34,759 nucleotides of DNA. Origin: Clostridia bacterium (lineage in GTDB: Bacteria > Bacillota > Clostridia > Christensenellales > Pumilibacteraceae). The number at the start of each line of letters is the position of its first letter. Within the stretch, counting starts at the first letter, position 1. Location: positions 1 to 34,759 of the forward strand of contig JAFVXL010000029.1 of the NCBI GenBank assembly GCA_017501145.1. Reading direction: 5' to 3'. Positions 391-17,978 of the stretch are shown piece after piece. A program made the translations under genes and the position numbers. The notes below the pieces were generated by a model. It was not told the DNA's origin. It worked only from the letters and a program-made list of their open reading frames with translations, and did not search any database.

Positions 391-1230
391 ATGAAACAAC
401 TTAAAAAAATTTCAAGCTATGTAATGGTACTTTGCCTGCTTGCAATAGGCGGTAGCTCCATGGCAACAGTAGCGCTTGCCGAAAGCATTGATTCGCAACC
501 AAGCAATACTATTACTGAACTAGCAGATGCGGACTTGTCGCGTTCGACAAACTATAATCCTATTTGTACCATATACACGTCAACAGAAATAGACGATAAA
601 ACAACTTTGTTAAGCCCTAACAACGTCACTTATAATAACGTTTCTGTTTATAACACGGCGGTGGTTTATCACTGGGATACAAACGGCTATGGCACAGAAT
701 TAGCTTTATCTAATTCAAACTCAGTTTATTATTTGATGGGAACAACTACATATAAAGATATAGTATTCCCTTCTTTTGTTAATAGCACCGAATGCGTTCC
801 TAATTTCAAATATGCAAAAAGCTACAGCAGTACGTCCAATAACTACTCAGACTATACTACCATTGCTTGGGAATATTTGGAAAATAATGGCGAATATATA
901 AGTGTAAACTATTATCACGACTGCGAGCTTAAAGTAAAGGGAAGATTTGACGCAATACATTTTGTTGGCTCAACTGTGCCCACCGAATATGACCAAAGCA
1001 GTTTTGTTTGGGAACACGGATTAGCTTGGAATAAATGGATTTACGGCACCGTTACCTATAACGGTGAAGTAAGTGACATTGAAGTTAAAGTACCTTTAGT
1101 TGGGTATAAAACAACCACTGTTACTGTAGGAGGTGTTTCCTTCTCGCTTCGTACAGGTCCCAACAAGGTTTCCATTAAGGCGAACTCTACTGCTAATATA
1201 AATACATTTAATTTTGCCTTTGGCGTGTAA
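391..1230 (+). CDS. Secreted protein of unknown function, 279 aa
   Basis: Unrecognised. The N terminus is a clear signal peptide: basic MKQLKK, a hydrophobic core to about residue 24, then ALAES, a likely signal peptidase I site near residue 30-31. The mature part is rich in Thr, Ser, Asn and Tyr with alternating hydrophobic residues, suggesting a beta-sandwich-like extracellular protein. There is no LPXTG motif, lipobox cysteine or C-terminal membrane segment, so it is probably released. The start is set by AGGAG ten bases before the ATG. It is a single-gene unit with its own extended -10 promoter and a terminator just after the stop. It converges on another small secreted protein. Confidence 0.8.
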   Translation: MKQLKKISSYVMVLCLLAIGGSSMATVALAESIDSQPSNTITELADADLSRSTNYNPICTIYTSTEIDDKTTLLSPNNVTYNNVSVYNTAVVYHWDTNGYGTELALSNSNSVYYLMGTTTYKDIVFPSFVNSTECVPNFKYAKSYSSTSNNYSDYTTIAWEYLENNGEYISVNYYHDCELKVKGRFDAIHFVGSTVPTEYDQSSFVWEHGLAWNKWIYGTVTYNGEVSDIEVKVPLVGYKTTTVTVGGVSFSLRTGPNKVSIKANSTANINTFNFAFGV

Positions 1231-1280: not shown

Positions 1281-1778
1281 TTACTCATTTATTATTGTTC
1301 CGTCAACATCTATTAGCCAAACATTACTTAACTTTTCTGTCCAGTCTTTGTTGTCGACTTTATAATATATTCTAGCTTGCCAATAGCGCTTAACTCCATT
1401 TATTGCAGCGCTTGCGCTTATCGACTCACCCATATCTAAATCATCAATATAATTGCCGCTCTCTAAAGACATGTTTATGTACGAATCTTGATTAGTTGTA
1501 GAAGAATAAAGATATACGTACACTCTTACAGTAGAAGTAAAAAGCGTAAAATCATTTTTTGCAGTTGCAGTCACTTGCCCATCATTAACGTTCATTGATA
1601 ACGATATTATCGAAAACAATCCCCTTGTACCCACATTTTCACTAAGCTCTAGCTCAACAGCTTGTTCCTGAGGGTATGAGTAAGCAAACGCTTTTTGCCT
1701 ATCTTTAGGCAAAAACAAGATTGTTGTTAGTGCAACCAATAATGCAACCGATGCGGAAATAATCTTTTTAGTTTTCAT
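1281..1778 (-). CDS. Small secreted protein of unknown function, 165 aa
   Basis: The N terminus MKTKKIISASVALLVALTTI is a typical Gram-positive signal sequence, with a likely cleavage after about residue 32 (AFA-YSY). The ~130-residue mature part reads as alternating beta strands (for example VRVYVYLYSS and WQARIYYKV), compatible with one small beta-sandwich domain. No anchor or lipobox is visible. The pattern resembles short secreted beta proteins common in Clostridia, but I cannot name the family. AGGAG lies nine bases before the ATG, and a promoter is visible at 1815-1843. It shares the terminator at 1240-1266 with the convergent gene. Confidence 0.75.
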   Translation of the reverse strand: MKTKKIISASVALLVALTTILFLPKDRQKAFAYSYPQEQAVELELSENVGTRGLFSIISLSMNVNDGQVTATAKNDFTLFTSTVRVYVYLYSSTTNQDSYINMSLESGNYIDDLDMGESISASAAINGVKRYWQARIYYKVDNKDWTEKLSNVWLIDVDGTIINE

Positions 1779-2652: not shown

Positions 2653-2889
2653 TTATTCTGTTTTTTCGTCCGTTTCTTGCTGATTTTCGCCCGTTTCTTG
2701 CTGATTTTCAATATTTTCCGGTGATGAATCGCCACTAAGCAAGCCTACAAATACACATATTGCGCAAACTGCATTGACTACTTCGTTTACATACGGAGCG
2801 TCTATCTTTACGCCCAAAAGCTGAAGTAGCATAATTATCATACCGGCAAGCGATATCCAAAATGTTTTTGTCTTAAACTTATTGCCCAT
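2653..2889 (-). CDS. phi-LC3-type phage holin, 78 aa
   Basis: A short protein opening MGNKFKTKTFWISLAGM, followed by two hydrophobic segments (about residues 10-28 and 35-53) and a charged, Gln/Glu-rich tail. The start NKFKTKTFW and the LLGV-to-VNEVV spacing fit the phi-LC3 holin family, small inner-membrane proteins that open holes to release an endolysin. The tail carries a tandem ENQQET repeat encoded by a 21-bp DNA repeat. It is the last gene of the cassette, nine bases after the coiled-coil gene and just before the terminator. No endolysin gene accompanies it. Confidence 0.75.
   Translation of the reverse strand: MGNKFKTKTFWISLAGMIIMLLQLLGVKIDAPYVNEVVNAVCAICVFVGLLSGDSSPENIENQQETGENQQETDEKTE
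2671..2712 (-). repeat. 21-bp tandem repeat inside the holin gene
   Basis: Units 2671-2691 and 2692-2712 share their first 18 bases exactly. They encode the repeated ENQQET at the holin C terminus. The length is a multiple of three, so changes in copy number would keep the frame. Confidence 0.85.
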
Positions 2890-2898
2890 ACCGTTACC

Positions 2899-3858
2899 TT
2901 ACCTATACTTGTAGTAAAGCGTGTAATAATAATAGTCGCTTAGACTGTTACGGAAAATGGGTTCATTAAGAAACAGCTCACGCGCCTCATCAAACGGCAT
3001 AGAATCAAGAATTTCTACTACTTTTTCATAAACGTTCTTTTCTATTTGCGATTTTTCCTCGCTAGAAAGCGCTCCTTTAAGCTCGTTTTCTTTTTGAGTC
3101 TGCGATAAAGCATCCGAATAAAGATCGCTTTCTGTTTTAGCCTTGTCAACGCCTTGCTCGTACTCGGTCTTAAGTAGCGAATTATTATATTCTATCGCCT
3201 TTTGGATGTTTTCTTCTCGCTCCGACTTAAGCTCGTTAATTCGCTCGGTAAGCTTTGCCGCCGACGAAATATTAAAGGCATTAAGCGCGGACGCTAGCTT
3301 GCCATCTAGGCTGTTAAGCTCCTTGTCTATTTCGTCTATTTTTGCATTATACTGACTGAGCAAATTATCAATACCCTGCGTGTAAGCCTTGTTTGCAGCC
3401 GCTTGATTGTTAAGTGCAATACTCGAACGAGCTAGTCCACGCTTAAGCGAATCGTTACTAAGCGTTTCTGCCGCTTCGTCATACGCTTGCTTTAGCTTTT
3501 GGGTGCTGTCTTCGTATAGCTGCTTGCGCGACTCTTTGTTTGCATTAAGCTCCTTTGCCTTGTTGTCGTATTCCGAAACGATTGCCGCCTTATTTTGGTC
3601 AACGTACGGCGAAAACTCATCCTTTGCACGCTGAGTTATTTCTTCGTCAGTTGGCGGCGTGTACTCGTATCTTTCGTAAGTAGGCACTTCGGTCTCTAAG
3701 GTGGTTTTGCCCGGCAAAACCGTGTCGTACTGACTCGATACGTAGTCTTGCAGTTCCTTAAGCTTGTCCATAGTTGAGCTTACACCAGAGTCTACGTTGT
3801 TCTTGTTAGAGCTGTTAGAGCCGTTAAGCAAGTTTTTTAGATACGTTAAAATGTTCAT
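2899..3858 (-). CDS. Coiled-coil virion-associated protein, 319 aa
   Basis: The protein is mostly highly charged alpha helix. After a Ser/Asn-rich start (about residues 1-30) and a Pro/Tyr segment (60-75), long heptad-like stretches run from about 75 to 290, followed by a Tyr-rich end (DYYYYTLYYKYR). The middle contains KRGLARSSIALNNQAA. Similar Gly-Leu-(Ala/Ser)-Arg-Ser-Ser segments occur in coiled-coil structural proteins of Bacillota phages, as I recall. In podoviruses, late helical proteins of this kind often act as internal or ejection proteins, which is my tentative reading. It could also be a fibre chaperone or scaffold. GGGAG precedes the ATG. It lies between the 76-aa protein and the terminal holin. 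Confidence 0.65.
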   Translation of the reverse strand: MNILTYLKNLLNGSNSSNKNNVDSGVSSTMDKLKELQDYVSSQYDTVLPGKTTLETEVPTYERYEYTPPTDEEITQRAKDEFSPYVDQNKAAIVSEYDNKAKELNANKESRKQLYEDSTQKLKQAYDEAAETLSNDSLKRGLARSSIALNNQAAANKAYTQGIDNLLSQYNAKIDEIDKELNSLDGKLASALNAFNISSAAKLTERINELKSEREENIQKAIEYNNSLLKTEYEQGVDKAKTESDLYSDALSQTQKENELKGALSSEEKSQIEKNVYEKVVEILDSMPFDEARELFLNEPIFRNSLSDYYYYTLYYKYR

Positions 3859-3926
3859 TTTTTACTCCCTTTTGATTTTTGTATTTTTGCGCCCGTTTGC
3901 TTTTTTGCACGACAAGACGCGCCTCG

Positions 3927-4157
3927 TTAATTTTGAATTTCATATATAACCTCCGAATCTTTTGTCAGTCTGCCAAACGGAAATAGGTAACAGTCCCTTG
4001 CGTAACTGACAATTCCGTCGTCTATAATTTGTCGGTTTTCTTTAAGCCGCTTCTTTCGTAATGCACCGCTTGTCCGTAATATTATTACGCTTTCGTCGCC
4101 TATAACGCATGCGCCAGACAGTCTACCCTTACCTAAGCTAAGAATTCCACCCGTCAT
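3927..4157 (-). CDS. Small unknown cassette protein, 76 aa
   Basis: Unrecognised. It starts MTGGILSLGKGRLSG and is basic in the middle (ALRKKRLKENR), with no membrane segment or Cys motif. Its ATG overlaps the stop of the UviB-like holin gene (ATGA, 4157-4154), so translation is probably coupled. It is followed by a 68-base gap before the coiled-coil gene. Position and coupling support a real gene. Its role could be in lysis control or as a minor virion protein. Confidence 0.6.
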   Translation of the reverse strand: MTGGILSLGKGRLSGACVIGDESVIILRTSGALRKKRLKENRQIIDDGIVSYARDCYLFPFGRLTKDSEVIYEIQN

Positions 4158-4441
4158 AATAGCTCCTTCTTAAGACGGAGCTTAAGGGTGTGTTCCTTGA
4201 TAAGCTCGGTGTCTTTTTTTATAGTTCTTGTAATATCTATTCCGCGGCGAGTTTCTTCCTTTAGCTCCTGACAAATCTCTAGCGACTGGGTAAGCGCCGA
4301 AATTTGGTTGCTTAGCGACGTTATGGTTGACGTATACTTCTTTTCGCGATTGCGAGAATCCTTTAGCATATAAAAAAACAAAAAGCAAAATAACGCCGCC
4401 CACAAACCGTTTTCGAGCGCAAAAGTCATTATCTCGTCCAT
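4154..4441 (-). CDS. BhlA/UviB-type holin-like protein, 95 aa
   Basis: One N-terminal membrane segment (WAALFCFLFFYML, about residues 14-26) is followed by KDSRNREKKY and a long charged coiled coil. This is the layout of the BhlA/UviB family, holin-like proteins of Bacillus phages and clostridial bacteriocin plasmids that permeabilise the membrane. I start it at 4441 (MDEIMTFALENGLW), preceded by GGAGG at good spacing. The longer frame from 4498 lies inside the previous gene and lacks a site. It is 11 bases after the 528-aa gene and overlaps the 76-aa gene by ATGA. It is the second holin class in this cassette. Confidence 0.75.
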   Translation of the reverse strand: MDEIMTFALENGLWAALFCFLFFYMLKDSRNREKKYTSTITSLSNQISALTQSLEICQELKEETRRGIDITRTIKKDTELIKEHTLKLRLKKELL

Positions 4442-4452
4442 CTTTTTCCTCC

Positions 4453-6039
4453 TTAATCGTTTATAGTTAGCGTTATTGTTCCGCCTTGATCGTTCCACGT
4501 CTTACCACTAATCTCGCATCGTTCCTCTATGTGCGCGCTTATTACCGTTCCGCCTACTGCTATGCGATAAAAGCTCAACTCTCCGCCATACAAAAAGATA
4601 GCCACACTCCCGGCTATTGCCGCGCTATCAAACTGAAAATCTTCTTTTAGCTTTACCGCGCCGCCGTCGCTTACGTAATACAGCTCGTCGTTAACCACAA
4701 AAAACCTGTTGCAAAAATAGTTCGCCTCGTACTCTTGTCCGCTAACAAGAGAGCACACGTAGCCGTGCGTATACGTGCATCCGTCCAATACAAGCTCGGA
4801 AGTTGCTCGCTCTTTCCAAGCAAATTCACATTCGCTAAGTCCGTCTGCCGTAAAAATATCTATTCCAAAACGCCCCTTGACGATAACCGAATAATCGTTG
4901 AGTCTAAACATTTCGCCTTCGCCATACGTATCTAGATCGTAAGTATGAACCATTTCGCCTTCGTATCTGTATATATGCAAAATCCAATCGCCCTTGACAA
5001 ATATATCGTATCCACCGTCACGGTACAATGCCACGACGTTTCCGCTCGCTACTCTGAGCTTTTTGCCACTTCTTAAAAGCTGCAAATTGCCAAGCTTGTC
5101 ATAGCTTACTATCTCACCGTCAGAACAAACGCATAGGTAATAATCACACTTTCCGCCGTATCTTACAGTAAGAGCGTCGCTATCCACCACGTAATATTCT
5201 TTGTTATTATGTAGCGCGGCGTGCTTAAAAAGAGGATCACAGATAAGCTCGTAGTCCTCAAAGCCACTCATGACCGGCGCGCCCGACTCGTACAATGCCG
5301 ACACCGTATTATAAGTACTAAACGGAACATTGTTAGGCGTAACGCTCGTTACATCTATATCTTCCACAAAGCAGCTACCGCTAACGTCCATGTGCCGTTC
5401 TACCTGTGTTGCATTGAAATACGCTAAATTAAATCTTGCACAAGGCTTTGTGTCGCAAAACACCAAAAAGTCCGTATAACCGCTTGAAGAAAAGCTTATG
5501 CTTAAGCCGTTATATTCTATATACTCAAAAGGCACGTCACTATATAAGCTTTGGTCAACGCGCAAAGGCCAAGGCGGCAAATGCGCGCTAGCTCCCTTAA
5601 CGGTCATTTCGCCTAACGGACAAATGCCAAGCAACGACTTAACAAGCGGATTTTCAGCAGGATAAAAGGTAAACTCTTGATTAGACGGCTCTAAATATAC
5701 CGTTCCGTACACTTCAAACTGCGCCGCTGTTATGGACGTGGTGCACACGTTAGAAAATGCCGATTGAGCACTTGGCGCAAAGCCTATTCGCTTTATAACT
5801 CCGCTAAATTCTCCTCGTAAAACCTCTACTCGATAAGTCGCATATAGCTCTCCCTTAGAAACGTCGTCGTTATACGATACCAGCTCAGTCTGTTTATACA
5901 CTCTGTTGCCCGTGCTATCCTCTATCGCCATATACGACGCGTACGCCATCCCCATAAGCCAAAAGTTAAAAGCCTGCCTAATCGTATTAAAAGCCTTATA
6001 TTCTTTGCCGTTTGCCTTAATTAAAAATTCGTTTCTCAT
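4453..6039 (-). CDS. Large beta-rich virion protein, possible receptor-binding protein
   Basis: Unrecognised, 528 aa. The first ~170 residues form a mixed domain with FYPAENPLVKSLLG. The rest is almost all short beta strands separated by Gly/Asp turns (for example VVALYRDGGYDIFVKGDW), like a beta-propeller or fibre shaft. It has many Cys and Tyr residues, no signal peptide and no membrane segment. It follows the 283-aa gene by an ATGA overlap (6039-6036), after the tail genes and before the holins, where podoviruses keep tail fibres or tailspikes. A host-recognition role is inference from position. Confidence 0.6.
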   Translation of the reverse strand: MRNEFLIKANGKEYKAFNTIRQAFNFWLMGMAYASYMAIEDSTGNRVYKQTELVSYNDDVSKGELYATYRVEVLRGEFSGVIKRIGFAPSAQSAFSNVCTTSITAAQFEVYGTVYLEPSNQEFTFYPAENPLVKSLLGICPLGEMTVKGASAHLPPWPLRVDQSLYSDVPFEYIEYNGLSISFSSSGYTDFLVFCDTKPCARFNLAYFNATQVERHMDVSGSCFVEDIDVTSVTPNNVPFSTYNTVSALYESGAPVMSGFEDYELICDPLFKHAALHNNKEYYVVDSDALTVRYGGKCDYYLCVCSDGEIVSYDKLGNLQLLRSGKKLRVASGNVVALYRDGGYDIFVKGDWILHIYRYEGEMVHTYDLDTYGEGEMFRLNDYSVIVKGRFGIDIFTADGLSECEFAWKERATSELVLDGCTYTHGYVCSLVSGQEYEANYFCNRFFVVNDELYYVSDGGAVKLKEDFQFDSAAIAGSVAIFLYGGELSFYRIAVGGTVISAHIEERCEISGKTWNDQGGTITLTIND

Positions 6040-6887
6040 ACTACCTCCGCTAGCAAATAGACATACAGCTTGTCCTTAATACCGTCCTTTATATCCAGCT
6101 CTTTTGCATAGCACTTTCCTCCCGACGAAAAAAGCAATTTCGTGCTTTTGCGCACAAATCTCAAATCGTCGATATAGCCGCTGTAACTTATACGTCTTTC
6201 GAGTGGCAAAAGGCTATCAAAGTCTTCTAACTCCATATAATACAAGCCACCGTTTTTTAGGTAAGCAATTCGTATCGCAAAATCGTCCGCTTGAATCGCA
6301 ACCTTGCTTGCGTCCAAGTAATAGGCGTGAGTCAGCCCGCTAGTAGTAAACATTTTTACCATGCCGCCGCTATCTACTACACAAATCAAAAATCCGTTTT
6401 TGTATGCGCAAACGTCGCCGTGTATGTAATTGCCTTCAAAAATTAAAGTGGGGCTAAACAGTCCTACATTAGTTGTAAACACGCTTACTGTGCCACCTTC
6501 GGCTACAAGATAACAAAGCGTATCTCCGTTGTAATCGGCGTATACCGAGCCTGCTACTTCAGAAGAATTGACGTTTCCTATCGCCATAAACCTTAGCTCC
6601 GAAATTGCTTGATTGCAACTAACGGTTATTTCGCCACCGTCCACTATCTTAAAAAAGACGTTGCTGCCACTACAAACCTTAATTCCGTCCACAAAGAAAT
6701 CCGCGCTAACCGAGCTTATGGCGTACGCCGCTATTTCGCCCTTGCCCAAAATTGTACAAACCGAGTTAATTCCGCTTCTTAAATTTTTAAGCTCAGTTGT
6801 TACCACTCCAAAGCTACTTGCAGAGTTATTACTAAGTATATCCTCCAAATCAACCGCCTTTAAGTAAGCAAGCTTTCCGTAATCCAT
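6036..6887 (-). CDS. Beta-rich virion protein of unknown function, 283 aa
   Basis: Unrecognised. After a short helical start (DYGKLAYLKAVDLEDILS) the chain is a run of beta strands with repeating blade-like motifs: LCYLVAEGGTVSVFTT, FLICVVDSGGMVKMFTT and IRIAYLKNGGLYYME. These three recur at roughly 45-residue intervals, suggesting a partial beta-propeller. The start is well set by AGGAGGGAG directly before the ATG. It is 10 bases after the propeller tail gene and overlaps the 528-aa gene (ATGA). It is probably a tail or fibre-attachment component. The resemblance to the 528-aa protein suggests the two form one structure. Confidence 0.6.
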   Translation of the reverse strand: MDYGKLAYLKAVDLEDILSNNSASSFGVVTTELKNLRSGINSVCTILGKGEIAAYAISSVSADFFVDGIKVCSGSNVFFKIVDGGEITVSCNQAISELRFMAIGNVNSSEVAGSVYADYNGDTLCYLVAEGGTVSVFTTNVGLFSPTLIFEGNYIHGDVCAYKNGFLICVVDSGGMVKMFTTSGLTHAYYLDASKVAIQADDFAIRIAYLKNGGLYYMELEDFDSLLPLERRISYSGYIDDLRFVRKSTKLLFSSGGKCYAKELDIKDGIKDKLYVYLLAEVV

Positions 6888-6897
6888 ACTCCCTCCT

Positions 6898-8238
6898 CTA
6901 TGCGTCCACGTAACTAAACGTCAATTGCGGTCTTGATATCACCGCGCCGGGCGCAGAGCAGTCTATTGTGAACCCAAATTTCCGTCCGCACATATTTATA
7001 TTTACGCGGCTAGTCGTGTTTTTTCCTTGAACAAAAATTTCCTTTTCTTGTCCGTCAACTACCACCTTGAGCGTTAAATCTACGTTGGTGTCTATATACA
7101 ACACCTTAATTCTCTTTTTTCTACCGCTACCAAGGTCGGTAGCAGGAACAACCCATCTTTTACCAAGCTGACAATCGCCACCTTTTTTGTGTAGCCTGCC
7201 GTCAATAATTGCATACAGCTCGTCGCCACTCGAATAAAAATCACTTATATCGTACCCGCGCATTAGCGTATAACCGTTGTCACCGTAAATCAAAATTGCG
7301 TTATTGACGTATTCGCCTTGATTTGAATCTTGGTCGAAATTTGACTTAAGTGCAAGATAATATTTGCCTCCGTGATAGACCGCCACCGAATTTTCGTCAG
7401 GACAAAGCAATCCGTCCAAATTTGTTAGTATCCTTCTTGTAGACAAGCCGTCAAAGCTGAACAACCCGTCAGACGAAGCGAATATTACCTTGTCACCGCA
7501 CAGCGCAATAGACGAAGGATATATTTTGCCGCTCGTAACAAATAAATGACTTATAGAAAATTCCGACTGATCGGCGTATGCACTAAGCCTACTGATACCA
7601 CGCTCGCGAAAAATGTAAACGTAGTTCAAAAAACTCAACACCTTTATTAGCGCTCCTCGCTCGTCAGCAAGCTCGATAAATCCGCCCTCAGTCATGTCGG
7701 TATTCCAATTAGACGGGTCTAAGTCATCCGAAAACCAAAGCGTGTTCTTCTCGTTGCTTGTTGTTACGAACATACGCTCGTAGTGCATAGTCATAGACGT
7801 AATAAGGGGCGACGCGCTAACGTAATAAGGCGCGTCAATACCGTTCCAAACCACCATATTGTCGAGCGGCGAGCAAATAAGTATAACTTCTTCGCCGTTA
7901 AGCCTATACTCTATGGCCTTAGGCGTACCACCAAGCGATATTCCCTCTAGCTTACCCGTTTGACCTAAGCTGCTTTTGTAATAAATTTCGCCGCTGATAC
8001 ACCACATTAGATACTCTCCCGCGTCACTGTGAAACACCCAAACACTATCTGCCTCTACGTCTTGACAAACAAACCCCGCACAATCTTTGAGCGCGCCCGA
8101 GGTAAAGTCAAAGTTGTAGCAGTTGGCCGCTACCGCTAGCGAAAGAACACTTTGGTCAAACGCAGAGTTAATACCCGAAGTAAAGTTGGGTACGCTTATT
8201 CTTGAGGTTGCTCTTTGCCTCACCTTGAGATAACTCAT
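6898..8238 (-). CDS. Beta-propeller tail protein (nozzle/stabilisation type), 446 aa
   Basis: The start VPNFTSGINSA followed by NCYNFDFTSGALKDCAGF, and the segment ERMFVTTSNEKNTLWFSDD plus LDPSNWN, are typical of podoviral tail-hub or DNA-stabilisation propellers (T7 gp12-like nozzle, P22 gp10-like). These close and extend the short tail below the connector. The body is a series of beta blades to about residue 400, followed by a small beta domain. I use the ATG at 8238, which overlaps the upstream stop (ATGA) and follows AAGGTGG. A GTG three codons earlier is possible. Family assignment is by pattern and position, not by alignment. Confidence 0.65.
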   Translation of the reverse strand: MSYLKVRQRATSRISVPNFTSGINSAFDQSVLSLAVAANCYNFDFTSGALKDCAGFVCQDVEADSVWVFHSDAGEYLMWCISGEIYYKSSLGQTGKLEGISLGGTPKAIEYRLNGEEVILICSPLDNMVVWNGIDAPYYVSASPLITSMTMHYERMFVTTSNEKNTLWFSDDLDPSNWNTDMTEGGFIELADERGALIKVLSFLNYVYIFRERGISRLSAYADQSEFSISHLFVTSGKIYPSSIALCGDKVIFASSDGLFSFDGLSTRRILTNLDGLLCPDENSVAVYHGGKYYLALKSNFDQDSNQGEYVNNAILIYGDNGYTLMRGYDISDFYSSGDELYAIIDGRLHKKGGDCQLGKRWVVPATDLGSGRKKRIKVLYIDTNVDLTLKVVVDGQEKEIFVQGKNTTSRVNINMCGRKFGFTIDCSAPGAVISRPQLTFSYVDA

Positions 8239-8771
8239 ATTAGCCACCTTCGCCCCTTTAGCCTTTTTTCGCCGTGCCCACTTAGCGCGCGCTTAAGAGC
8301 GTCCTTAAAGCGCGTATCGTAAGTAACAGCCTCCTCATAAAAACCCGTTACGAGCAAGTACTCAGCGGCTATCCCGTACGAAATTATACGCGGCGTAAGA
8401 TGAAGCTCGATCGGAACGTCGTCTTCTAATTGTAGCGTAGGAGCACGCGTGCAGTAAATTACCTTGTAAGCTCCGTCCTTATCCACTTTTATTCTTGACG
8501 GCATAAGCGAAAACCTCACCCTTGCGCCGTTAATATCGGTTACGCTAATCACGTCATACACAGTATCCGAAATAAGCGAATACGGTATGGAGCCGTTGCT
8601 CGACTGGACTGTCAGCTCGCATTTTAGCGGAATATATTCGGACGTTATCTCGTCCAAACAGTTGTTGGCGCACCTAATTAGTAGCTTTTCCGTATCCGTT
8701 AGCTGCTCGTCAAATGCTACATCTAAATTTAGCGCAGACGCCGCAAGCAAAATACATTCTTTTAGTTTCAT
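8235..8771 (-). CDS. Head-tail connector (adaptor-like), 178 aa
   Basis: The helical start KLKECILLAASALNLDVAF, the segment LLIRCANNCLDEITSEYIPL, a central beta part and the helical end FKDALKRAL match the size and layout of podoviral adaptor proteins (T7 gp11 / P22 gp4 type) that dock under the portal. The end is strongly basic (GEKRLKGRRW). It has a one-base overlap with the 111-aa gene (TAATG) and ATGA coupling to the propeller gene. The connector-then-nozzle order is the normal podovirus order and supports the call. Confidence 0.6.
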   Translation of the reverse strand: MKLKECILLAASALNLDVAFDEQLTDTEKLLIRCANNCLDEITSEYIPLKCELTVQSSNGSIPYSLISDTVYDVISVTDINGARVRFSLMPSRIKVDKDGAYKVIYCTRAPTLQLEDDVPIELHLTPRIISYGIAAEYLLVTGFYEEAVTYDTRFKDALKRALSGHGEKRLKGRRWLI

Positions 8772-9106
8772 TACAATCCCCCTTTGGACAGAACTCTCTC
8801 CGCCCCAAACTCTATATCCTTTACAGTTTTACTAAGCGACGATTTTAAGTTGCGCTCGTTTTCGAGTTCGGTTTCTTTGAGCAGCTTCTCTAAACGCTCT
8901 CGTCTAGTTTGCATTGCGCGAGTCAGCACTCTTTGGTCAAGCTTGCTTGCCGAAAAGCAAAACGTATTGCCCTTATTACCCTTGTTGTGAACCTCGTACC
9001 GGTTGTCCCGATACGAGTAAACAACAAAGTAGTCCTTGTCTATCGCCTTAAGTCTACGCGCTATACCAAAAAGGTCGCCTTTAATTGTTTGGTATAAGCC
9101 TATCAT
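8771..9106 (-). CDS. Small head-region protein, 111 aa
   Basis: Unrecognised. The first ~50 residues look mixed alpha/beta (IDKDYFVVYSYRDNRYEVHNKG). The second half (70-105) is a charged helix with ERLEKLLKETELENERN. It lies directly between capsid and connector, two bases after the capsid stop and overlapping the connector start. This is where head-completion or decoration proteins are usually found. Intact coupling implies it is translated. Confidence 0.6.
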   Translation of the reverse strand: MIGLYQTIKGDLFGIARRLKAIDKDYFVVYSYRDNRYEVHNKGNKGNTFCFSASKLDQRVLTRAMQTRRERLEKLLKETELENERNLKSSLSKTVKDIEFGAERVLSKGGL

Positions 9107-9107
9107 A

Positions 9108-10250
9108 TTAGATAATGTTAGTTATTCTGCCCTGACCGTTCGGTCTGTCACAAATAAGGTCGCAGTACTTAACCAATGTAGCGGTATATGTAGGCTTACC
9201 CTGAGTTTGACGCAAAATCTTACCGTTTTCGGTTTCGAGATATCTCCAATCGCAAAGCTGATGAAGCTTGAACATAGAAGTATCAAGGAAGTACATTTCT
9301 CCCTCGGGCACAAATCTGTCGTACACAAGCGGAATTCCGTTGAAAGTAAGCGTCTTGTAACCGCCATTAAGCTCCATAATGTCGATATTGCGCTTAAAGC
9401 TTGCCATATAATCTTGATAAGCGTACTTAGCTTTTGCCGAGCAAGCAATATAGTCGATTTTGCTACCGCTAACCATTTCGAGCTTGTCAATAAGCTTTTG
9501 CATAACGATTTCGTCCAACGCGTTACTGCTTTGGGTTACAGCGTTCAAGAACGAGTGATCTGCGCGGTTTAGACCATACAAGGTTCCCGAATTAGAAAAG
9601 AGCGAGCCAATACCCGTAATTTCCTTGTCCTTGCTTCCCTGAACGTAAAGCGCAAATCCTTCTTCTATATCTTCCGACCAGGTAGAAAGACTGATGACAT
9701 TGTTAGAATAGTCAACATCAGTTATCTTAACACCACTTGCAAAAAGCTCGTCGTCATCGTCATAAATGTCAACGATAAGACCTACTGCAAGATTTCTAAC
9801 CGAGTTAACTTTCTTAGCAGAGCTGCTGATGATTTCACAAAGCTTACCACTACCATCACCATAAAGCATTCTACCGAGATTAAATCTCGATGCGGTAAGC
9901 AAATCCTCAAGCTCGCTGTTGAGAAGATCGGTAAAAGAGCCTCTACCGTCAGCGCTCGCTCTAATCGCCTTGTCCGAAATCTCAATTTGACCGTAGAGAT
10001 TTTTAAGCGTTGTTACAAATTGCAAGTAAGCAGTACCGCTCGCAACAGGCAAATTGCCGTCTTCATCGCCTGCTCCGATACCGCCGTTAATGCCGTATTT
10101 TGCGGCCTTGCGAATTTCCTTACCCCAAACGTCCGAAGCCGTTTGCTCGATAGACGCAAGCAAGGGATTTACCTTAGTGTTAAGCAACTCGGTTACCGCA
10201 CCGAGATAAACTGTTTTTAATGCGTTTTCCGCACTGTTTAATGTTACCAT
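9108..10250 (-). CDS. Major capsid protein (HK97-fold type), 380 aa
   Basis: Size, position after the portal, and layout fit an HK97-fold coat protein: a helical N terminus (residues 1-40), a region with LYGQIEISDKAIRA, a long central helix (SFTDLLNSELEDLL) and a C-terminal P-domain-like stretch with NGIPLVYDRF and DTSMFKLHQL. No protease gene or separate delta-domain is visible, so the shell probably matures without proteolysis, as in P22 or T7. AAGGAG precedes the ATG by eight bases. It would form the DNA-filled shell. Confidence 0.7.
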   Translation of the reverse strand: MVTLNSAENALKTVYLGAVTELLNTKVNPLLASIEQTASDVWGKEIRKAAKYGINGGIGAGDEDGNLPVASGTAYLQFVTTLKNLYGQIEISDKAIRASADGRGSFTDLLNSELEDLLTASRFNLGRMLYGDGSGKLCEIISSSAKKVNSVRNLAVGLIVDIYDDDDELFASGVKITDVDYSNNVISLSTWSEDIEEGFALYVQGSKDKEITGIGSLFSNSGTLYGLNRADHSFLNAVTQSSNALDEIVMQKLIDKLEMVSGSKIDYIACSAKAKYAYQDYMASFKRNIDIMELNGGYKTLTFNGIPLVYDRFVPEGEMYFLDTSMFKLHQLCDWRYLETENGKILRQTQGKPTYTATLVKYCDLICDRPNGQGRITNII

Positions 10251-10263
10251 TTGATTTTTCTCC

Positions 10264-10566
10264 TTAATATCTGATAATTTTTTCAGCCAAACGCTTAGCG
10301 TCAGCCAAATTTTTAGGTTTGTTTACCGGCGTAAGAGCCGAAAGTCCATTAGAGGCAAGATTAGGACTGTTTCGCGTAGTAAGCTCGTACAAATACTGCG
10401 CAATAATTCTGTTTTTTACGTACTCATTTGCCTGCGCAAGCTCAAAAAGCGTTTCGTTGTCGCTCATTTGACTCAATTTTTCTGCAAGCATCTTGCCCTT
10501 TTCGCGTTCCTTCTTTAGCTTTAAGTTTAGTGCTGCGTAATTACGTCCGTTAAATTTGTTTTTCAC
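10264..10566 (-). CDS. Short helical protein, candidate scaffold, 100 aa
   Basis: Almost entirely charged alpha helix (LNLKLKKEREKGKMLAEKLSQ, then a second helix to residue 65), with a flexible Asn/Ser/Pro segment and a basic C-terminal helix. It sits between portal (ATGA overlap 10566-10563) and capsid (13 bases). Phages place scaffolding proteins here, and the helical low-complexity nature fits, although 100 residues is short. A function in procapsid assembly is inference. Confidence 0.55.
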   Translation of the reverse strand: MKNKFNGRNYAALNLKLKKEREKGKMLAEKLSQMSDNETLFELAQANEYVKNRIIAQYLYELTTRNSPNLASNGLSALTPVNKPKNLADAKRLAEKIIRY

Positions 10567-12425
10567 GTTAAGCTTTCCTCCGTTAATTTCATGTACGTTT
10601 TGTGCTCTCGAATATGCTCTTGCAAACTCTTGTACAATTCGTCGTTATCCTTAACGCATCTTTCAAATTCGCCGCTAAGCATAAATCTACTGTGCTCGTC
10701 AATGTGGATATTATGGTCGTCAAGCTCACTTACAATCGGTTTTTCCTTGCTTAGACGCACGTTTTCCTTTTGAGCGCGGTTAGTATGAAGCTTTTGATTA
10801 TCATACACCGTTTCCCAACCGCCATATCCCATAACGTCCAAAATCTTATACCTCATACTTGCCGAAAGTTTTCCGTTTTCGTCATAAAGCAACCCTGCTC
10901 GCAAAAGCTCAAATATCATATTTTGCTTGCTTGCTAGTGACGAATTAAGTTCGTTCTCGGTATCAAAGGCTATGTCGTCACAGCTAACGTCACTACTGTT
11001 CCAGCTTACGATTTCTATCTCACCGTCGCTTCCTACCGCGCGCATAACTCTTGGTTGAGTTGCATACTGCTTGTACAATCTCAAAATATGCTGACCAACC
11101 TTTTTGATTGCGCTTCTGATACGCTCAGCCGTTACGCTAAGTCTTGTGTCGTCCTGCTCCAAAAGCAGCTTGAGCGCGCTTCCGCTCGCCACCGAGGAAG
11201 GTACGGAGCTACTACGCATAAGCTCGCTTACACCGCTTATCGAAATAAACTCAGAAAGCAGCTTATCTTCTTCATAGTTAAAATCATTAGGCACAGAGCC
11301 GGGATTGAGTAGCATTGGCGGTGTTGCGCCCTGTCTATACACAAGTATCTTACCGGGACTGAGTCCTTCGTCTTCCAAATTGGAAATATCCACCGAACCA
11401 TCTTCTACCGCAAGCACACCCATAGCTATACGGTTCATAAATTCATGCTTGCGGTTCTTTACCGCGTTGTATGCTCTTTGCACAGGTATACAACGCTCCA
11501 CCATAGAAGTTCCAAAAAAACAGCCGGGGTTTTTTAGACAGTCTTGCTTGACAAACGGAAAATCTCTACTGCCATCCTTACCGTTAACGTACGGCAAATC
11601 TCCGTAATAAAGCAGCTGATCGCCAGCAACTATTGCAAGCTCACCTCTTGGCTTGTCCACCGTAGGACGAGTGTATCGCTCAATAACTATTGCGTAATCT
11701 TTCATAGTCGCCCTACGAACGGCAGGAATCATACTCGTACAGTTAAGTCCTCCGATAAACCCAGATTCCTCAAATCCTATTACGTCTGTTTCCGTTCCCG
11801 CTACTCGCTTACCCCACTTGCGATAAATATCGTCTACGTGCACAGCCTTAGCGTGAATTATACTGCTTAACGCTTCCATTGTTTCGGCGGCGAGCGAAGA
11901 CGGGAAAATTTCGTACGGTGGACAAACGTCTATACGCACATCGCCCTCAAGCACGTCTTTATTTCCCACGTTGCCGACTACCTTGCCTCCGTTATCGTCC
12001 CACGTTACCTTGTAGAAAACACTTCCTGCGATTTCCGACCACATAGTAGCTTGCGTGACTATGTCGCTAATATCTTGCTTTTGCCACGCGCCGTCCAAAA
12101 TTCTCGTAGCCACTCTCGACGTTCTAATGTCATCTTCATCTCCCGACGCCGGTCTAACGCTCATCTTCGGTCTGACTCTGCCGAGCTTAGCAAGGCGCGT
12201 TTCTACAATAGACGCTATATGGTTAAATACTTCTCTCTCTTGCCAAAAATAATCACGCTCTCCGTCTTCAATTTCGCCTAAGGCGTTAATGTACGAAAAC
12301 TGATTGCCCATAACGAAATTGCTATTAAGCTGCCAAACCGCCTCAATGTTTTTTCGTTCTAATCTACGGTTTTCATAGTCGTTTTTTACCGAAGCTACTA
12401 TATCTTCGATATAAAGCTGATCCAT
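10563..12425 (-). CDS. Portal protein (P22-like), 620 aa
   Basis: It begins with a helical wing (YENRRLERKNIEAVWQLN). Mid-protein it has CFFGTSMVERCIPVQRAYN and KHEFMNRIAMG, then the segment SGVSELMRSSSVPSSVASG followed by the long helix ERIRSAIKKVGQHILRLYKQ. This is the typical clip/stem-to-crown pattern of large podoviral portals. The dodecameric portal is the DNA channel at one capsid vertex and the docking site for terminase. Its start overlaps the zinc-protein stop (TAATG), and its stop overlaps the next start. Length is within the 550-725 residue range of P22-type portals. Confidence 0.75.
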   Translation of the reverse strand: MDQLYIEDIVASVKNDYENRRLERKNIEAVWQLNSNFVMGNQFSYINALGEIEDGERDYFWQEREVFNHIASIVETRLAKLGRVRPKMSVRPASGDEDDIRTSRVATRILDGAWQKQDISDIVTQATMWSEIAGSVFYKVTWDDNGGKVVGNVGNKDVLEGDVRIDVCPPYEIFPSSLAAETMEALSSIIHAKAVHVDDIYRKWGKRVAGTETDVIGFEESGFIGGLNCTSMIPAVRRATMKDYAIVIERYTRPTVDKPRGELAIVAGDQLLYYGDLPYVNGKDGSRDFPFVKQDCLKNPGCFFGTSMVERCIPVQRAYNAVKNRKHEFMNRIAMGVLAVEDGSVDISNLEDEGLSPGKILVYRQGATPPMLLNPGSVPNDFNYEEDKLLSEFISISGVSELMRSSSVPSSVASGSALKLLLEQDDTRLSVTAERIRSAIKKVGQHILRLYKQYATQPRVMRAVGSDGEIEIVSWNSSDVSCDDIAFDTENELNSSLASKQNMIFELLRAGLLYDENGKLSASMRYKILDVMGYGGWETVYDNQKLHTNRAQKENVRLSKEKPIVSELDDHNIHIDEHSRFMLSGEFERCVKDNDELYKSLQEHIREHKTYMKLTEESLT

Positions 12426-12628
12426 TATGCCCCCTTCTTCTTGGCGGTTTCAACGCTTTTTGGAATAACAGACTCGCCTATAACCTTATATAGCTCATTA
12501 AGACAATCGCTGCAAACATGAATTTGACTGCGTATACCTACCCTATCCATCTTAATCGAATATTCGGCTGTGTTTTTACACACACCCATTTCGCATTTAA
12601 TTTTGTGTTTTGCTTTTATCAGCTGCAT
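12425..12628 (-). CDS. Small zinc-finger-like cassette protein, 67 aa
   Basis: It contains CEMGVC and, 26 residues on, CSDC, a C-x4-C / C-x2-C set that probably binds one zinc ion. The rest is basic. The start is set by AAGGAGG before the ATG at 12628, inside the 3' end of the preceding gene (32-base overlap). The stop overlaps the portal ATG. Lying between terminase and portal, it may assist packaging or act as a small regulator. I do not recognise the family. Confidence 0.6.
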   Translation of the reverse strand: MQLIKAKHKIKCEMGVCKNTAEYSIKMDRVGIRSQIHVCSDCLNELYKVIGESVIPKSVETAKKKGA

Positions 12629-12899
12629 TTTCAGCCTCCTTTAATAAATTCAATAACCGTGTTTTTTCTTCCTTTAGTTCCTCTTCCGTCATTTCCATAA
12701 ACGAATCGGCGGCAAAGTCGTCCATCAAAAACTTGACGGCAGAAATGTCAGGCGGAACTTCCTTTTGTGTAACTTTTCTTTTTACAACCGTCAATTCGCC
12801 GTCCACCATAGCGTATTCTTCCACGTTTTCGGTAGTCAAGTACCCCGTGGCTTTTCTTTTTACGGCGTCAAGCAGCTTTTCGGTCAACTCTTGGTTCAC
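12597..12899 (-). CDS. Small packaging-associated protein (TerS-like?), 100 aa
   Basis: It contains a beta segment EYAMVDGELTVVKRKVTQ followed by KEVPPDISAVKFLMDDF. A basic-beta stretch ending in V-P-P-D-x-x-A-x-x-F recalls the C-terminal part of many terminase small subunits (for example K-x-I-P-P-D-x-T-A-x-x-F-W). It lacks an obvious HTH and ends in a charged helix. It directly follows terminase (ATGA overlap) rather than preceding it, which is unusual for TerS. It is probably a DNA-packaging accessory. The assignment is tentative. Confidence 0.5.
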   Translation of the reverse strand: MNQELTEKLLDAVKRKATGYLTTENVEEYAMVDGELTVVKRKVTQKEVPPDISAVKFLMDDFAADSFMEMTEEELKEEKTRLLNLLKEAENAADKSKTQN

Positions 12900-14320
12900 C
12901 TTTTCCTCCTTATTTTGCCGATAAGACGTTCTTTGTCTAATGCAATTTCGCTTTTTTTGGTTAGCTCTATCGCGGGCTTTGGCCTTGCCATTACGTAATA
13001 TCTAAGCTCGTCAAGACAGTGATCATCAATTTTTTTGGGAACGTCGCCACTTCCCCATCTATAAGCCTTGAGCTCACGTATAAGATTGACGCAATTTTTG
13101 AATACGTACAGCTTTTTTCCATACGCTCCGCAAAGATATTCCTTAACTCTACTAATCCCACTAAACAAATCCTTGTTTACCTTGGGATTGACGTTTATAC
13201 CGTGCTCACAGAAGAGTTGAGTCACGCTTTTTAGCGACGCCAAGGTTTTTTGGTTAGCTGCCGAGTCTATAAGCGCCTCTATTCTTCCAAACGAATCGGT
13301 ATGCCACGAGAGAGTCTTGCTTATTTCTTTAATCCTTTGCGCGTGATATCCCACTTCCTTGCCTGCCTCGTAATGCTCCGCCACCACAAAAATATTTCCA
13401 TCTCCGTCCACAGCGTACCAGTGACACGATAACGGATTGTTTAGACCGGGGTCAATGCTTAGCTTGTCCTGCCACGAAGGAGGCACGCTAAACGGCTCTA
13501 TAACGTTGACGTTTTCGTCAAATTCGGGATATACAGGCCCACTCCCCTCTATAAACCTACCGTATCTTCTACTGCTAAGAAGGTCGTCGCTCATAGCTGC
13601 GCTAAGCTTACGAACCTCGTCCTTGTCAAGATACGGATTGTCAGCCCACTCCATACCCTCATACCACACCTCGTCGCTGTTGCCGCTATTTAGGTATATT
13701 CTATCGTATATAAAGGTAAGTCCCTTTAGCGGAGTCATGGTGCCAAACAATTCGCCCTTTTTGTCAAGCACACGCATAACACACTCGTCATAAATGTCCT
13801 CCGGGGGCTCTTCGTCAAACCAAACAAAGTCAAGCGACGTGCCCTGAAACTTCTCTCGCCCCATCTCACAGCTCTTGAAGGTTATCCTACTAAGCCCACC
13901 AAAAACATTCTTAATGCTTATGTAATCTATTACTCCGCCCATTGGGTTAGATGACTTACCGCTTACCATAACGACGCTTTCTATCCAGTCGGGATTGAGA
14001 TATTGCAAAATCTTTCTTTGTGCAACGTCACGCTGAACGTCACGGCTAACACTTACTACCCAACCTTCTACGCCGCTTTTGTTTGTCTTAAACGGATGAT
14101 TGCCGCGCGCCAACCACACCGCTTCCGCTGCGCCGCACTCAGTTTTTCCGCTTCGGTTGCCACCAAAAACCCAACGGTTACGCTTAGCGCATTTATGGAA
14201 AATCATTTGTTTTTCGTGCACTACGTCTTTGTTGTAGTACTGCAATTTATTTTTCTTGCGATAAGAGCTAATCGCCTTATCAAGCCTACGTATTCTTGCT
14301 ATAATTTCTTTTTCCGTCAT
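12896..14320 (-). CDS. Terminase large subunit, 474 aa
   Basis: ATP-driven DNA packaging motor with nuclease. Walker A is GGNRSGKT (residues 53-60), Walker B with the catalytic Glu is LDFVWFDEE (163-171), and the coupling motif is TMTPLKG (194-200). The RNase-H-like nuclease carboxylates are D290 (SIDPGLNNP), D352 (ALIDSAAN) and the DDHCLDELRYY cluster (432-441). All expected motifs are present, so it looks functional. An eight-codon upstream reading frame with a better ribosome binding site overlaps its ATG (ATGA). It heads the cassette, and the divergent SH3 gene begins 84 bases upstream. Confidence 0.9.
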   Translation of the reverse strand: MTEKEIIARIRRLDKAISSYRKKNKLQYYNKDVVHEKQMIFHKCAKRNRWVFGGNRSGKTECGAAEAVWLARGNHPFKTNKSGVEGWVVSVSRDVQRDVAQRKILQYLNPDWIESVVMVSGKSSNPMGGVIDYISIKNVFGGLSRITFKSCEMGREKFQGTSLDFVWFDEEPPEDIYDECVMRVLDKKGELFGTMTPLKGLTFIYDRIYLNSGNSDEVWYEGMEWADNPYLDKDEVRKLSAAMSDDLLSSRRYGRFIEGSGPVYPEFDENVNVIEPFSVPPSWQDKLSIDPGLNNPLSCHWYAVDGDGNIFVVAEHYEAGKEVGYHAQRIKEISKTLSWHTDSFGRIEALIDSAANQKTLASLKSVTQLFCEHGINVNPKVNKDLFSGISRVKEYLCGAYGKKLYVFKNCVNLIRELKAYRWGSGDVPKKIDDHCLDELRYYVMARPKPAIELTKKSEIALDKERLIGKIRRKR

Positions 14321-14340
14321 ACCAAATCAGCCTTATGCAT
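14317..14340 (-). CDS. Possible 7-residue leader peptide before terminase
   Basis: ATG at 14340 reads MHKADLV and stops at TGA (14319-14317), overlapping the terminase ATG as ATGA. AAGGA lies seven bases upstream of this ATG, a better site than the AAGG ten bases before the terminase ATG. It would couple terminase translation to the leader. It is short enough to be chance, so confidence is limited. Confidence 0.4.
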   Translation of the reverse strand: MHKADLV

Positions 14341-14404: not shown

Positions 14405-15061
14405 ATGAAGTTACTACTTATCCTTACCGTTTTTCTTTCTCAAGCAAATACGTTTAGCTACGGATATCTCAGCGCAGACACCGTGATGTATGCTGACGAA
14501 AATTGTCTATCAGCAATTACTACTTTGCCAAAAACGTACTTTGCTATCGTACTAAATGAGGGCGATGACAGTTATTACGTTAGCTATAAGGACGTAACGG
14601 GATATGTAAAAAATATCGAAATAGTTGATTACGAGCCCGTAACCAAATACGCCGATGCTACCTTCACGGCAAACAACGACGGGTATCCCGTAAAGCTGCG
14701 AAAATCTCCTAACGCAAACAGCGAAGTTGTTATAGAAATTCCGCACTCAAAAAGTGGCTACTACTACGGCGACGTTAGCGGTAGCGCGCTTATAGAACAA
14801 GTTGGAACTTGCTGGCATTTCGTATGCTACAACGACGGAACAAACTCGTACCATGGTTATGTTTATTCGTCGCAAGTAAGAGTAAGTGAAATAAAAAACA
14901 ACGTAATAGAAAAAGTCGTATATAATGACAAATCGAACAGCACAGCTTCGATTCAGCAAAATACCGACTTTCTCCTAATAGTTCTTTTGTGTGTACCGTC
15001 CGTTCTTATAATGTACATTATATTCTCGGACAAAGAGCGCAAACCGCGCTACAAAGAATAG
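14405..15061 (+). CDS. SH3-type protein with C-terminal membrane anchor, 218 aa
   Basis: The N terminus is hydrophobic (LLLILTVFLSQANTF), a probable signal sequence with cleavage near residue 20-25. A first small beta module ends DVTGYVKNI. A second, SH3b-like module (about 80-160) has VKLRKSPNANSEVV and ends YHGYVYSSQVRV. One membrane segment (about 184-205, FLLIVLLCVPSVLIMYII) and a basic tail follow. The topology is outside SH3 domains, C terminus inside. SH3b domains usually bind cell-wall peptides. The protein may guard or sense the wall, or be a phage moron. It runs opposite to the virion genes. The start at 14405 is preferred because the longer frame is antisense to terminase. AAGG is about 14 bases upstream, a weak site. 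Confidence 0.65.
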   Translation: MKLLLILTVFLSQANTFSYGYLSADTVMYADENCLSAITTLPKTYFAIVLNEGDDSYYVSYKDVTGYVKNIEIVDYEPVTKYADATFTANNDGYPVKLRKSPNANSEVVIEIPHSKSGYYYGDVSGSALIEQVGTCWHFVCYNDGTNSYHGYVYSSQVRVSEIKNNVIEKVVYNDKSNSTASIQQNTDFLLIVLLCVPSVLIMYIIFSDKERKPRYKE

Positions 15062-15508
15062 CTACGACGCATTAGGTAGCTTAGATATCTTCTTGTGCAT
15101 TCTTTCCACAAGCGCAATATCTTTATAATCGCTTTCAAACCTTTGCTCGTCATAGCCGTAATAAGCAAGCAGCTTACATAAACGCGCCATAATTCGCTGA
15201 TACCACCTATAGGTACTGCCCTTGCTCATACCTACTATGTCAGCAATTTCAGCAAACGATCCGCCTGATGCGCTACGCATAACTATGTAATATTCCTTCT
15301 TAGTAAGCGACTCCTTCATTTTGTCATGCAATACTCTGAGATTGATTATCTTAACCTTCTTGTCGTTAAGCTTGATTATGCTGTCTATTAGCTTCATAGT
15401 TGGCACAGTGAGTAACGATGACAAGCTATCGACTTGCTTATCAATAGAATTTGAAAACGCGTCGAATTTGTTATTAAGCGCAAAAATAACTCTAATCCAA
15501 TTCTTCAT
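15062..15508 (-). CDS. Sigma-70 region-4-like HTH regulator, 148 aa
   Basis: After a helical N half, residues ~70-115 (LTKKEYYIVMRSASGGSF, AEIADIVGMSKGSTYRWYQR) form a helix-turn-helix of the sigma region 4 / ArpU-like late-regulator kind. It has no region 2, so it is not a full sigma factor. Small HTH proteins of this type control late or virion genes in Bacillota phages, and it lies next to the packaging end of the cassette. A role as its activator is inference. AAGGAG precedes the ATG. Upstream is an 18-bp dyad, possibly its own operator. Its stop codon directly abuts that of the convergent SH3 gene, with no intergenic base. Confidence 0.65.
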   Translation of the reverse strand: MKNWIRVIFALNNKFDAFSNSIDKQVDSLSSLLTVPTMKLIDSIIKLNDKKVKIINLRVLHDKMKESLTKKEYYIVMRSASGGSFAEIADIVGMSKGSTYRWYQRIMARLCKLLAYYGYDEQRFESDYKDIALVERMHKKISKLPNAS

Positions 15509-16699: not shown

Positions 16700-17911
16700 C
16701 TAACGAAGCGCGTCAAGCAAATACTCCGTTATCCAATCGGTCAATGCGTTATCCTCACTTTCTACCATTATTCTTACTTTATCTTCCGTGCCGCTCATCC
16801 TTACAACCAGCCTACCTTTGCCACCAAGAATTTCTTCACACTCTCTTTTCGCCTTGACAAACGTATCGCAAGTAAGCAAGTCTTTAGCTCCGTCAATCGA
16901 AGTTACCCTTTGCGGCAAAAGCTCCAGCCTCCTAAGCTCAGCGGCCTTAGATAACGCAAGCGCAGTAAGCAACCCATCACCCGTTTTTGACGGAGAAATT
17001 ATATAATGTCCGCTCTGCTCTCCGCCCAACGCAAATCCGCTCTTGCGCATAAGTGCGCTAATATGCCTATCTCCAACGTCAGTACGCAAAAACGGCAATG
17101 ACTCACTATTTAGCGCTCGCTCAAGCGCTACGTTGTTCATAACCGTACCTACGACGCCATTAGGACGAATAAGCCTACTTAAGTTATACAAAACCGAATC
17201 GCCGTCAATCACGCCTCCATGCACAACCGCAACCCTATCAGCATCACCGTCAAACGCAAATCCCAACCCCTTGGTTAAGCTTTGTATAAACGACGGATAT
17301 ACAGCTCCTACCCCGCAATTAATACGCCGTCCATCAATCGCGTCAGCATAAACATTTACCTTAGCGCCACACCTAACGAAAACCTCCTTCGCTATGCTTG
17401 CAGCAGCCCCAAAAGCACAATCCAAAGCTATGCTTTTGCCACCTAAATCTCCACCGTAGCTGACAAGATAATCAACGTACTCCCTTCTTCCTTGCGAATA
17501 ATCCACCGCCTTTCCGCCACCACAACCCAAACGAGCATCGTCAATGAGGTTTTCTATCCTCGTCTGACAATCGTCGCTTATTTTATAGCCGCTGCTATCA
17601 AAAAATTTGAGTCCGTTATAGCAAGGCGGGTTATGCGATGCGCTAATCATTATTCCGCCCATCTTAGCGCGCTGACATAGAAATGACACACAAGGCGTGG
17701 GAGCAATTCCAACCTTATACACAACACCACCGCCACGCATAATGCCACTTGTTAGCGCGTCAAAATACGACATACTCGACACTCTCGTATCAGTAGCGAC
17801 AATCCACTTATCGTATAGCTCCGCAGCCGCAAGCCCTGCCCTAAAACACAGCTCTTCATTTATTCCGTCGCCGCAAATTCCCCTTATTCCATCAGTACCA
17901 AAATACTTCAT
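16700..17911 (-). CDS. glmM: Phosphoglucosamine mutase
   Basis: Converts GlcN-6-P to GlcN-1-P on the route to UDP-GlcNAc. It has all four phosphohexomutase signatures: FGTDGIRG at the N terminus, ISASHNP with the phosphoserine (about residue 99), FDGDADR (Mg site) and VRMSGTEDKVRIM (phosphate-binding loop, usually R-P-S-G-T-E-P, so Pro is replaced at two points). At 403 residues it is somewhat shorter than the usual ~445. The start at 17911 follows TTGGAGC, and the extension to 17938 has no site. It is divergent from the export protein-glmS pair, so both halves of the GlcN-1-P pathway share this locus. Confidence 0.93.
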   Translation of the reverse strand: MKYFGTDGIRGICGDGINEELCFRAGLAAAELYDKWIVATDTRVSSMSYFDALTSGIMRGGGVVYKVGIAPTPCVSFLCQRAKMGGIMISASHNPPCYNGLKFFDSSGYKISDDCQTRIENLIDDARLGCGGGKAVDYSQGRREYVDYLVSYGGDLGGKSIALDCAFGAAASIAKEVFVRCGAKVNVYADAIDGRRINCGVGAVYPSFIQSLTKGLGFAFDGDADRVAVVHGGVIDGDSVLYNLSRLIRPNGVVGTVMNNVALERALNSESLPFLRTDVGDRHISALMRKSGFALGGEQSGHYIISPSKTGDGLLTALALSKAAELRRLELLPQRVTSIDGAKDLLTCDTFVKAKRECEEILGGKGRLVVRMSGTEDKVRIMVESEDNALTDWITEYLLDALR

Positions 17912-17978
17912 AGTAGCTCCAATATGTAATTTATTCATTTACTAAACATATACTATGTAAAAAGCTTGAGGTATGTGA

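Follow-up and report, generated by a model that had tools for sequence, protein, structure and literature searches.

The DNA analysed here is a stretch of 34,759 bases ("the window") which forms the entire contig JAFVXL010000029.1 of a Clostridia bacterium of the family Pumilibacteraceae, whose genome (GCA_017501145.1) comprises 86 contigs and 1.13 Mb. On its minus strand, from 14320 to 2653, lies a cassette of phage virion genes that is almost certainly a domesticated, mainly vertically inherited system for making short-tailed particles. We further consider it probable (at roughly 0.7) that this podovirus-derived, host-domesticated cassette works as a gene transfer agent (GTA), in which case particles would be produced, filled with host DNA and delivered to other cells. 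The first-pass annotation of this DNA had suggested a GTA or another domesticated particle, and this proposal is strengthened by the single copy, the mainly vertical inheritance and the purifying selection described below, with gene transfer as its probable use.

Structure and extent of the cassette

We observed that all open reading frames (ORFs) of the cassette are intact. Most overlap by 1-46 nucleotides (nt) or stand 1-13 nt apart, with a single gap of 68 nt, in agreement with the translationally coupled unit described at first. The operon is closed by a strong bidirectional terminator (2588-2617) with a 13-bp stem (13 pairs, including 6 GC pairs), found on both strands. The unit is wider than the 2653-14340 originally given. 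A regulator-like gene, r15062 (15062-15508, minus strand), and an opposed, membrane-anchored gene, sh3 (14405-15061, plus strand), stand upstream; they are retained alongside the cassette in several other families and are part of it.

No integrase or replication module was found in or around the cassette within the window contig, nor were att-like direct repeats framing the cassette seen in the window. As the window is the whole contig, what is said to stand beside the cassette in this genome refers to these 34.8 kb. Within the cassette itself we recognised no gene for an integrase, for replication, for a maturation protease or for an endolysin. Phage life-cycle genes were likewise absent in the relatives, as judged by profile and length in stretches of about 20 kb taken from contigs as long as 531 kb. 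The initial claim that life-cycle and lysis genes are lacking is thus correct for these functions but not for the holins, of which two (4154-4498 and 2653-2889) are present.

Distribution and gene order

The large terminase (TerL) was present in 35 of the 36 other genomes of the same family (identity 61-83%; one copy has an internal stop). The gene for the major capsid protein (MCP) was found in 179 of 295 near-complete genomes of the surrounding order, covering 61 of its 116 genera, and was nearly always single copy. We take this order to be the Christensenellales of GTDB; NCBI places the family under Eubacteriales. A sporadic occurrence among related genomes, which had been named as the mark of an ordinary prophage, is therefore not what we observed. 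Outside the order, a sample of the whole class yielded only remote or one-family matches. A scan of genome records confirmed a capsid relative in at least 510 stretches. Pumilibacter muris, P. intestinalis and Anaerocaecibacter muris are members of the window's family, and the cassette is carried by three cultured isolates, so that its packaging, capsid size, regulation and transfer are directly testable.

The order of the genes is kept as well. It runs r15062, the opposed sh3, TerL, o12597, o12425, portal, scaffold, capsid, o8771, a8235 and nozzle, followed by a variable tail pair, bhlA, the DUF7934 gene and a holin. This synteny holds in our families f1, f3, f6, f14, f15, f17, f19, f20, f27 and f30, although individual genes have been lost and the positions of bhlA and DUF7934 are in places rearranged.

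In the window, the genes beside the cassette (16700-34644) mostly serve housekeeping functions, as had been reported from ddl and glmM. The same locus, proposed earlier as a check, is found in the genus, which keeps glmM-ddl upstream. Part of the family keeps ddl upstream (sometimes joined by a gene named from its sequence as isocitrate-dehydrogenase-like), and the flanks differ between families. With its chromosomal location, constant gene order, stable flanks within the genus, and no mobile genes or att-like repeats, the cassette is fully endogenised.

Two further capsid observations were made during this survey. In family f67 (L205-L207, L209), relatives of the capsid, a scaffold-like protein and o8771 (E ~1e-140) occurred in 4 of 4 sampled genomes, at loci without a window-type TerL or portal alongside; this set is possibly another domesticated or common prophage type. 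In L198, a single-contig genome of 5 Mb, two equally scoring capsid relatives lie about 63 kb apart (G677:C1:1964210 and 2026981), and these perhaps sit in prophages.

Inheritance and selection

Trees of the host (rpoB and rpoC) and of the cassette (TerL, portal and MCP) were built with FastTree for 40 genomes. They have 19 of 37 splits in common, where 200 label shuffles gave a mean of 0.3 and a maximum of 2. Path distances in the two trees were also correlated (0.775, permutation maximum 0.33), and remained so within the family (0.62, permutation maximum 0.29). The G+C content at third codon positions (GC3) of the cassette followed that of the host (r 0.974, slope 0.98) over a host range of 0.22-0.87, which indicates long residence. 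The ratio of nonsynonymous to synonymous substitution rates (dN/dS), proposed earlier as a check, was low for all three genes, with medians of 0.053 for MCP, 0.066 for TerL and 0.087 for the portal; the holin was the loosest, at 0.31. These results establish that the cassette is mostly inherited vertically and co-diversifies with its host, while some conflicts remain.

All structural genes are of phage origin and losses are scattered among the relatives, as could be seen with an ordinary or decaying prophage acquired repeatedly at a hot spot. Such a history is nevertheless very improbable, given the near-universal single copy, the host-like tree, the host-matched GC3, the purifying selection, the lack of integrase, replication genes and att-like repeats, and the lack of a close relative among 50,697 phage records. 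In that collection, the closest capsid was 26% identical (actinobacteriophages such as Shocker) and the closest TerL about 30%. A functional temperate prophage was rejected since an integrase, a replication module and att sites were not found in the window or in the relatives' stretches, and a decaying remnant is ruled out by the dN/dS of 0.05-0.09. A plasmid-borne element was discarded too, as the plasmid search gave no match to the cassette. In IMG/VR, 17 related records of 4-27 kb (L071-L087) are listed as viral genomes; these are plausibly pieces of bacterial chromosome miscalled as viruses.

Several observations weigh against a gene transfer agent. In one genome, G012 (L065), TerL carries a stop and the rest of the cassette is missing; G023 (L063) is without capsid and nozzle; G050 (L068) has a truncated TerL and a capsid remnant; and G222 (L287) has ddl with no cassette beside it. 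(The absence from G006 is uninformative, because ddl is also missing from that assembly.) Eight well-supported splits of the cassette tree disagree with the host tree, most of them lying deep or inside genera. Between L031 and L032, dS is ~0.15-0.4 from TerL to o8771 and then 0.4-1.2 from a8235 to the holin. Between L146 and L150 dS also jumps part-way, the tail half being instead the more similar one. These jumps suggest homologous recombination inside the cassette between species and, together with the conflicting splits, point to some horizontal exchange. Low dN/dS by itself is also usual in active phages. Among the cassette genes, neither a clear small terminase nor an endolysin was found. 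Finally, many relatives are without the candidate adhesins encoded at 4453-6887, and receptor binding in them would need another locus.

Head and packaging genes

The genes described in this and the next section are on the minus strand unless stated otherwise. TerL (12896-14320) matched PF03237 (Terminase_6N, 8.3e-15) and PF17289 (Terminase_6C, 1.1e-5), and its ATPase and nuclease motifs are intact. The Walker A motif, the DEE motif and the nuclease aspartate were invariant in an alignment of 16 rows; among 112 full-length copies, the motif patterns were found in 108 (Walker A), 109 (DEE) and 97 (nuclease). TerL was also weakly similar to the PBSX-type family TIGR01547 (8.6e-5, below the cut-off).

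TerL is followed by o12597 (12597-12899), a small conserved protein in a conserved position, which is possibly, though doubtfully, a small terminase (PHROG 309 at just 0.03), and by o12425 (12425-12628), a small cysteine-containing protein by its sequence, conserved in relatives. The portal (10563-12425) matched P22_portal (PF16510, 2.3e-18) and PHROG 156 (9.7e-35). We observed short portal frames in L036, L041, L043 and L055 (394-566 amino acids, the usual length being ~620), possibly assembly frameshifts or real truncations.

The product of 10264-10566 is scaffold-like, as judged by its position between portal and capsid and its conservation as a profile. The MCP (9108-10250) matched NF033394 (capsid_maj_Podo) at 1.7e-81 (273.8 bits; the cut-off is 80) and PHROG 14242 at 6.7e-51. 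In one genome of family f27 the capsid gene is tandemly duplicated, with both copies intact (L211 8026-10376; G111:C2:8035-10373). A small protein conserved in relatives, o8771 (8771-9106), follows the capsid.

Tail, release and flanking genes

The gene at 6898-8247 encodes the tail nozzle. Profile matches of its product were weak, and searching PDB sequences with nozzle and capsid profiles returned no relevant entry, while the fold search did match the nozzle. Its AlphaFold model (predicted local distance difference test score, pLDDT, 89.0; predicted template modelling score, pTM, 0.88) had a Foldseek match of 1.4e-23. Structural comparison matched it to many podovirus nozzles (Z 19-29), among them the tail protein of Pa223 (Z 29.2 over 424 residues), SU10 (26.1), P22 gp10 (22.7) and T7 gp12 (19.6). 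Tail-tube, tape-measure, sheath and baseplate families were not recognised among the cassette proteins. The model and its matches thus indicate a podovirus-type tail, with a nozzle of the P22 gp10/T7 gp12 fold and no recognised long-tail genes, and the term short-tailed is supported by structure. The podovirus-like character first described is correct, with a basis beyond gene order in the NF033394 capsid, the P22-type portal and this nozzle fold (Z up to 29.2). Upstream of it, a8235 (8235-8771) is a candidate portal-nozzle adaptor on account of its position and conservation; its match to a PHROG head-tail adaptor (E 0.36) was not significant.

Known phage satellites usually carry integrases and use the capsids of their helpers. 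A satellite borrowing a helper's replication, which the first-pass annotation had put forward as the main alternative, would explain the missing replication genes. Such a satellite is scarcely credible here, since the cassette encodes a complete head and tail of its own (capsid, portal, terminase and tail), has no integrase, and is inherited mainly vertically with a tree that follows that of the host.

Two genes after the nozzle form the fastest-evolving part of the cassette. The product of 4453-6039, a variable tail protein, is a candidate receptor-binding protein by its fast divergence. It is 32-43% identical inside the genus, compared with ~80% for TerL and MCP, and only part of the relatives carry it. 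Its partner (6036-6887) is likewise a variable tail protein, conserved in part of the relatives.

At 4154-4498 lies a BhlA-type holin (PF10960 5.1e-15; PHROG 2429 1.1e-10), followed by a small ORF (3927-4157) that is conserved in the genus and some other relatives. The next gene (2899-3858) encodes a DUF7934 protein (PF25588 2.3e-59), a candidate internal/ejection or tail-plug protein, conserved across families. Its AlphaFold model (pLDDT 84.6) is a long alpha-helical hairpin (helices 71-139 and 146-260). Its fold matches (uncharacterised proteins of phages, internal proteins of virions) were weak and helical, so we assign it no function. The last gene (2653-2889) encodes a holin (PHROG 297 1.7e-8) and is also the last cassette gene in many relatives.

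Holins without an endolysin and fast-evolving candidate adhesins (4453-6887) could also be accommodated by a domesticated particle with another use, either a PBSX-like killer that packages host DNA without delivering it or a device for programmed lysis and DNA release. To our knowledge, the known phage-tail-like killers have long tails, whereas that of the cassette is a stub nozzle of the kind that ejects DNA. The retained nuclease and ATPase motifs of TerL would be needless in a DNA-free killer, yet PBSX packages DNA too, and is a precedent for such a use (PMC12946183). We regard these other uses as unlikely, though less so than a prophage or a satellite, and prefer the gene transfer agent.

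Of the two upstream genes, sh3 (plus strand, opposed to the operon) keeps its place across families and encodes a probably secreted, C-terminally membrane-anchored protein. Its SH3_3 match was weak (0.035), and the signal peptide and C-terminal transmembrane segment were read by eye. One may speculate that it acts as a receptor on the cell surface, confers immunity or aids release. The r15062 product is a helix-turn-helix (HTH) protein resembling sigma region 4 (Sigma70_r4_2 6e-5, below the cut-off; PHROG 1740 2e-6). It is kept upstream of sh3-TerL across families, and its HTH decays in some relatives; it may be a late regulator or a small terminase.

PADLOC gave no meaningful defence match, only coiled-coil-like hits to the DUF7934 protein. 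Just past the cassette terminator, the window encodes two probably secreted proteins without a Pfam family (391-1230, plus strand, and 1281-1778, minus strand), adjoined by an HTH_3 regulator (1882-2418). A 788-amino-acid protein without Pfam or PADLOC match is encoded at 30788-33154 (plus strand).

Proposed mechanism and significance

In the working model, the operon would be turned on in some of the cells, with r15062 as a possible switch. TerL would package pieces of the host chromosome via the portal into a small capsid. The adaptor and nozzle would then finish the stub tail, to which the variable adhesin candidates (4453-6887) may or may not be added. Release would depend on the two holins and a host autolysin standing in for the phage endolysin, after which the DNA would be ejected through the nozzle and injected into kin.

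We give even odds to the broader proposal that this is an independently domesticated short-tailed GTA that many families of the order have from a shared ancestor, and that it drives homologous gene exchange in small-genome gut bacteria. Outside the Alphaproteobacteria, few known GTAs would then match it in breadth or age, and its conserved regulator and membrane protein would be new. If the cassette is a GTA, much of a largely uncultured order of gut Clostridia inherits a means of exchanging chromosomal DNA, and the entry of such cassettes in viral catalogues as virus fragments would have to be corrected.

Comparison with known systems

The cassette resembles podoviruses of the P22/SU10/EBPR type in its nozzle fold and in the order of TerL, small gene(s), portal, scaffold and capsid, the head gene order of the EBPR podovirus being the same. 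It differs from them in that identity is at most ~26-30% and that these phages carry further life-cycle genes which are missing here.

The Rhodogtaviriformidae of the Alphaproteobacteria (RcGTA and its relatives) similarly have an endogenised, caudovirus-derived operon without replication genes that is vertically inherited and co-diversified. RcGTA is siphovirus-like, whereas the tail of the cassette is a podovirus nozzle, and its capsid, portal and terminase are of P22/podovirus families. Compared by description rather than by sequence, the cassette was likely domesticated independently of this group.

PBSX of Bacillus subtilis, a Gram-positive host, is also a domesticated particle of phage origin; it packages host DNA, and its TerL is the one with weak similarity noted above. 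PBSX is a killing particle with a long contractile tail, while the cassette has no recognised tail-tube, sheath or baseplate genes. The killing role of PBSX is cited in PMC12946183.

GTAs have been defined by six features (Kogay et al. 2022, PMC9662315): particle proteins derived from caudoviricetes, packaging of mostly random host DNA, a fully endogenised genome, a head too small for that genome, mostly vertical inheritance with co-diversification, and delivery of DNA to cells. Three of these six are seen in the cassette, namely the phage-derived proteins, the endogenisation and the co-diversification, and it is on this account a strong GTA candidate and not a proven GTA.

The closest described system, again compared by description and not by sequence, is FpGTA of Faecalibacterium prausnitzii, which its authors present as the first GTA-like element of podovirus type (Borodovich et al. 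2026, PMC12946183). Its particles hold random host DNA of 8.4-8.9 kb, and the capsid and portal of FpGTA I are RCH50849.1 and RCH50851.1. Both systems have a podovirus-like operon of ~10-12 kb with TerL, portal, scaffold, capsid and tail genes and without replication genes, in anaerobic gut Clostridia, and FpGTA is near-ubiquitous in its genus. FpGTA has its tail-fibre/receptor-binding protein and holin/endolysin genes in a second operon ~125 kb away, whereas the cassette has holins and nozzle in one unit. FpGTA is reported from one genus, while the cassette spans many families of its order and largely co-diverges with its hosts; if it is a GTA, it would be a second and far wider short-tailed example. 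The same study reported three cases of GTA-like packaging in Christensenellaceae, seen in faecal particles, without identifying the genes (PMC12946183), and the cassette described here could supply the gene cluster for this packaging of host DNA.

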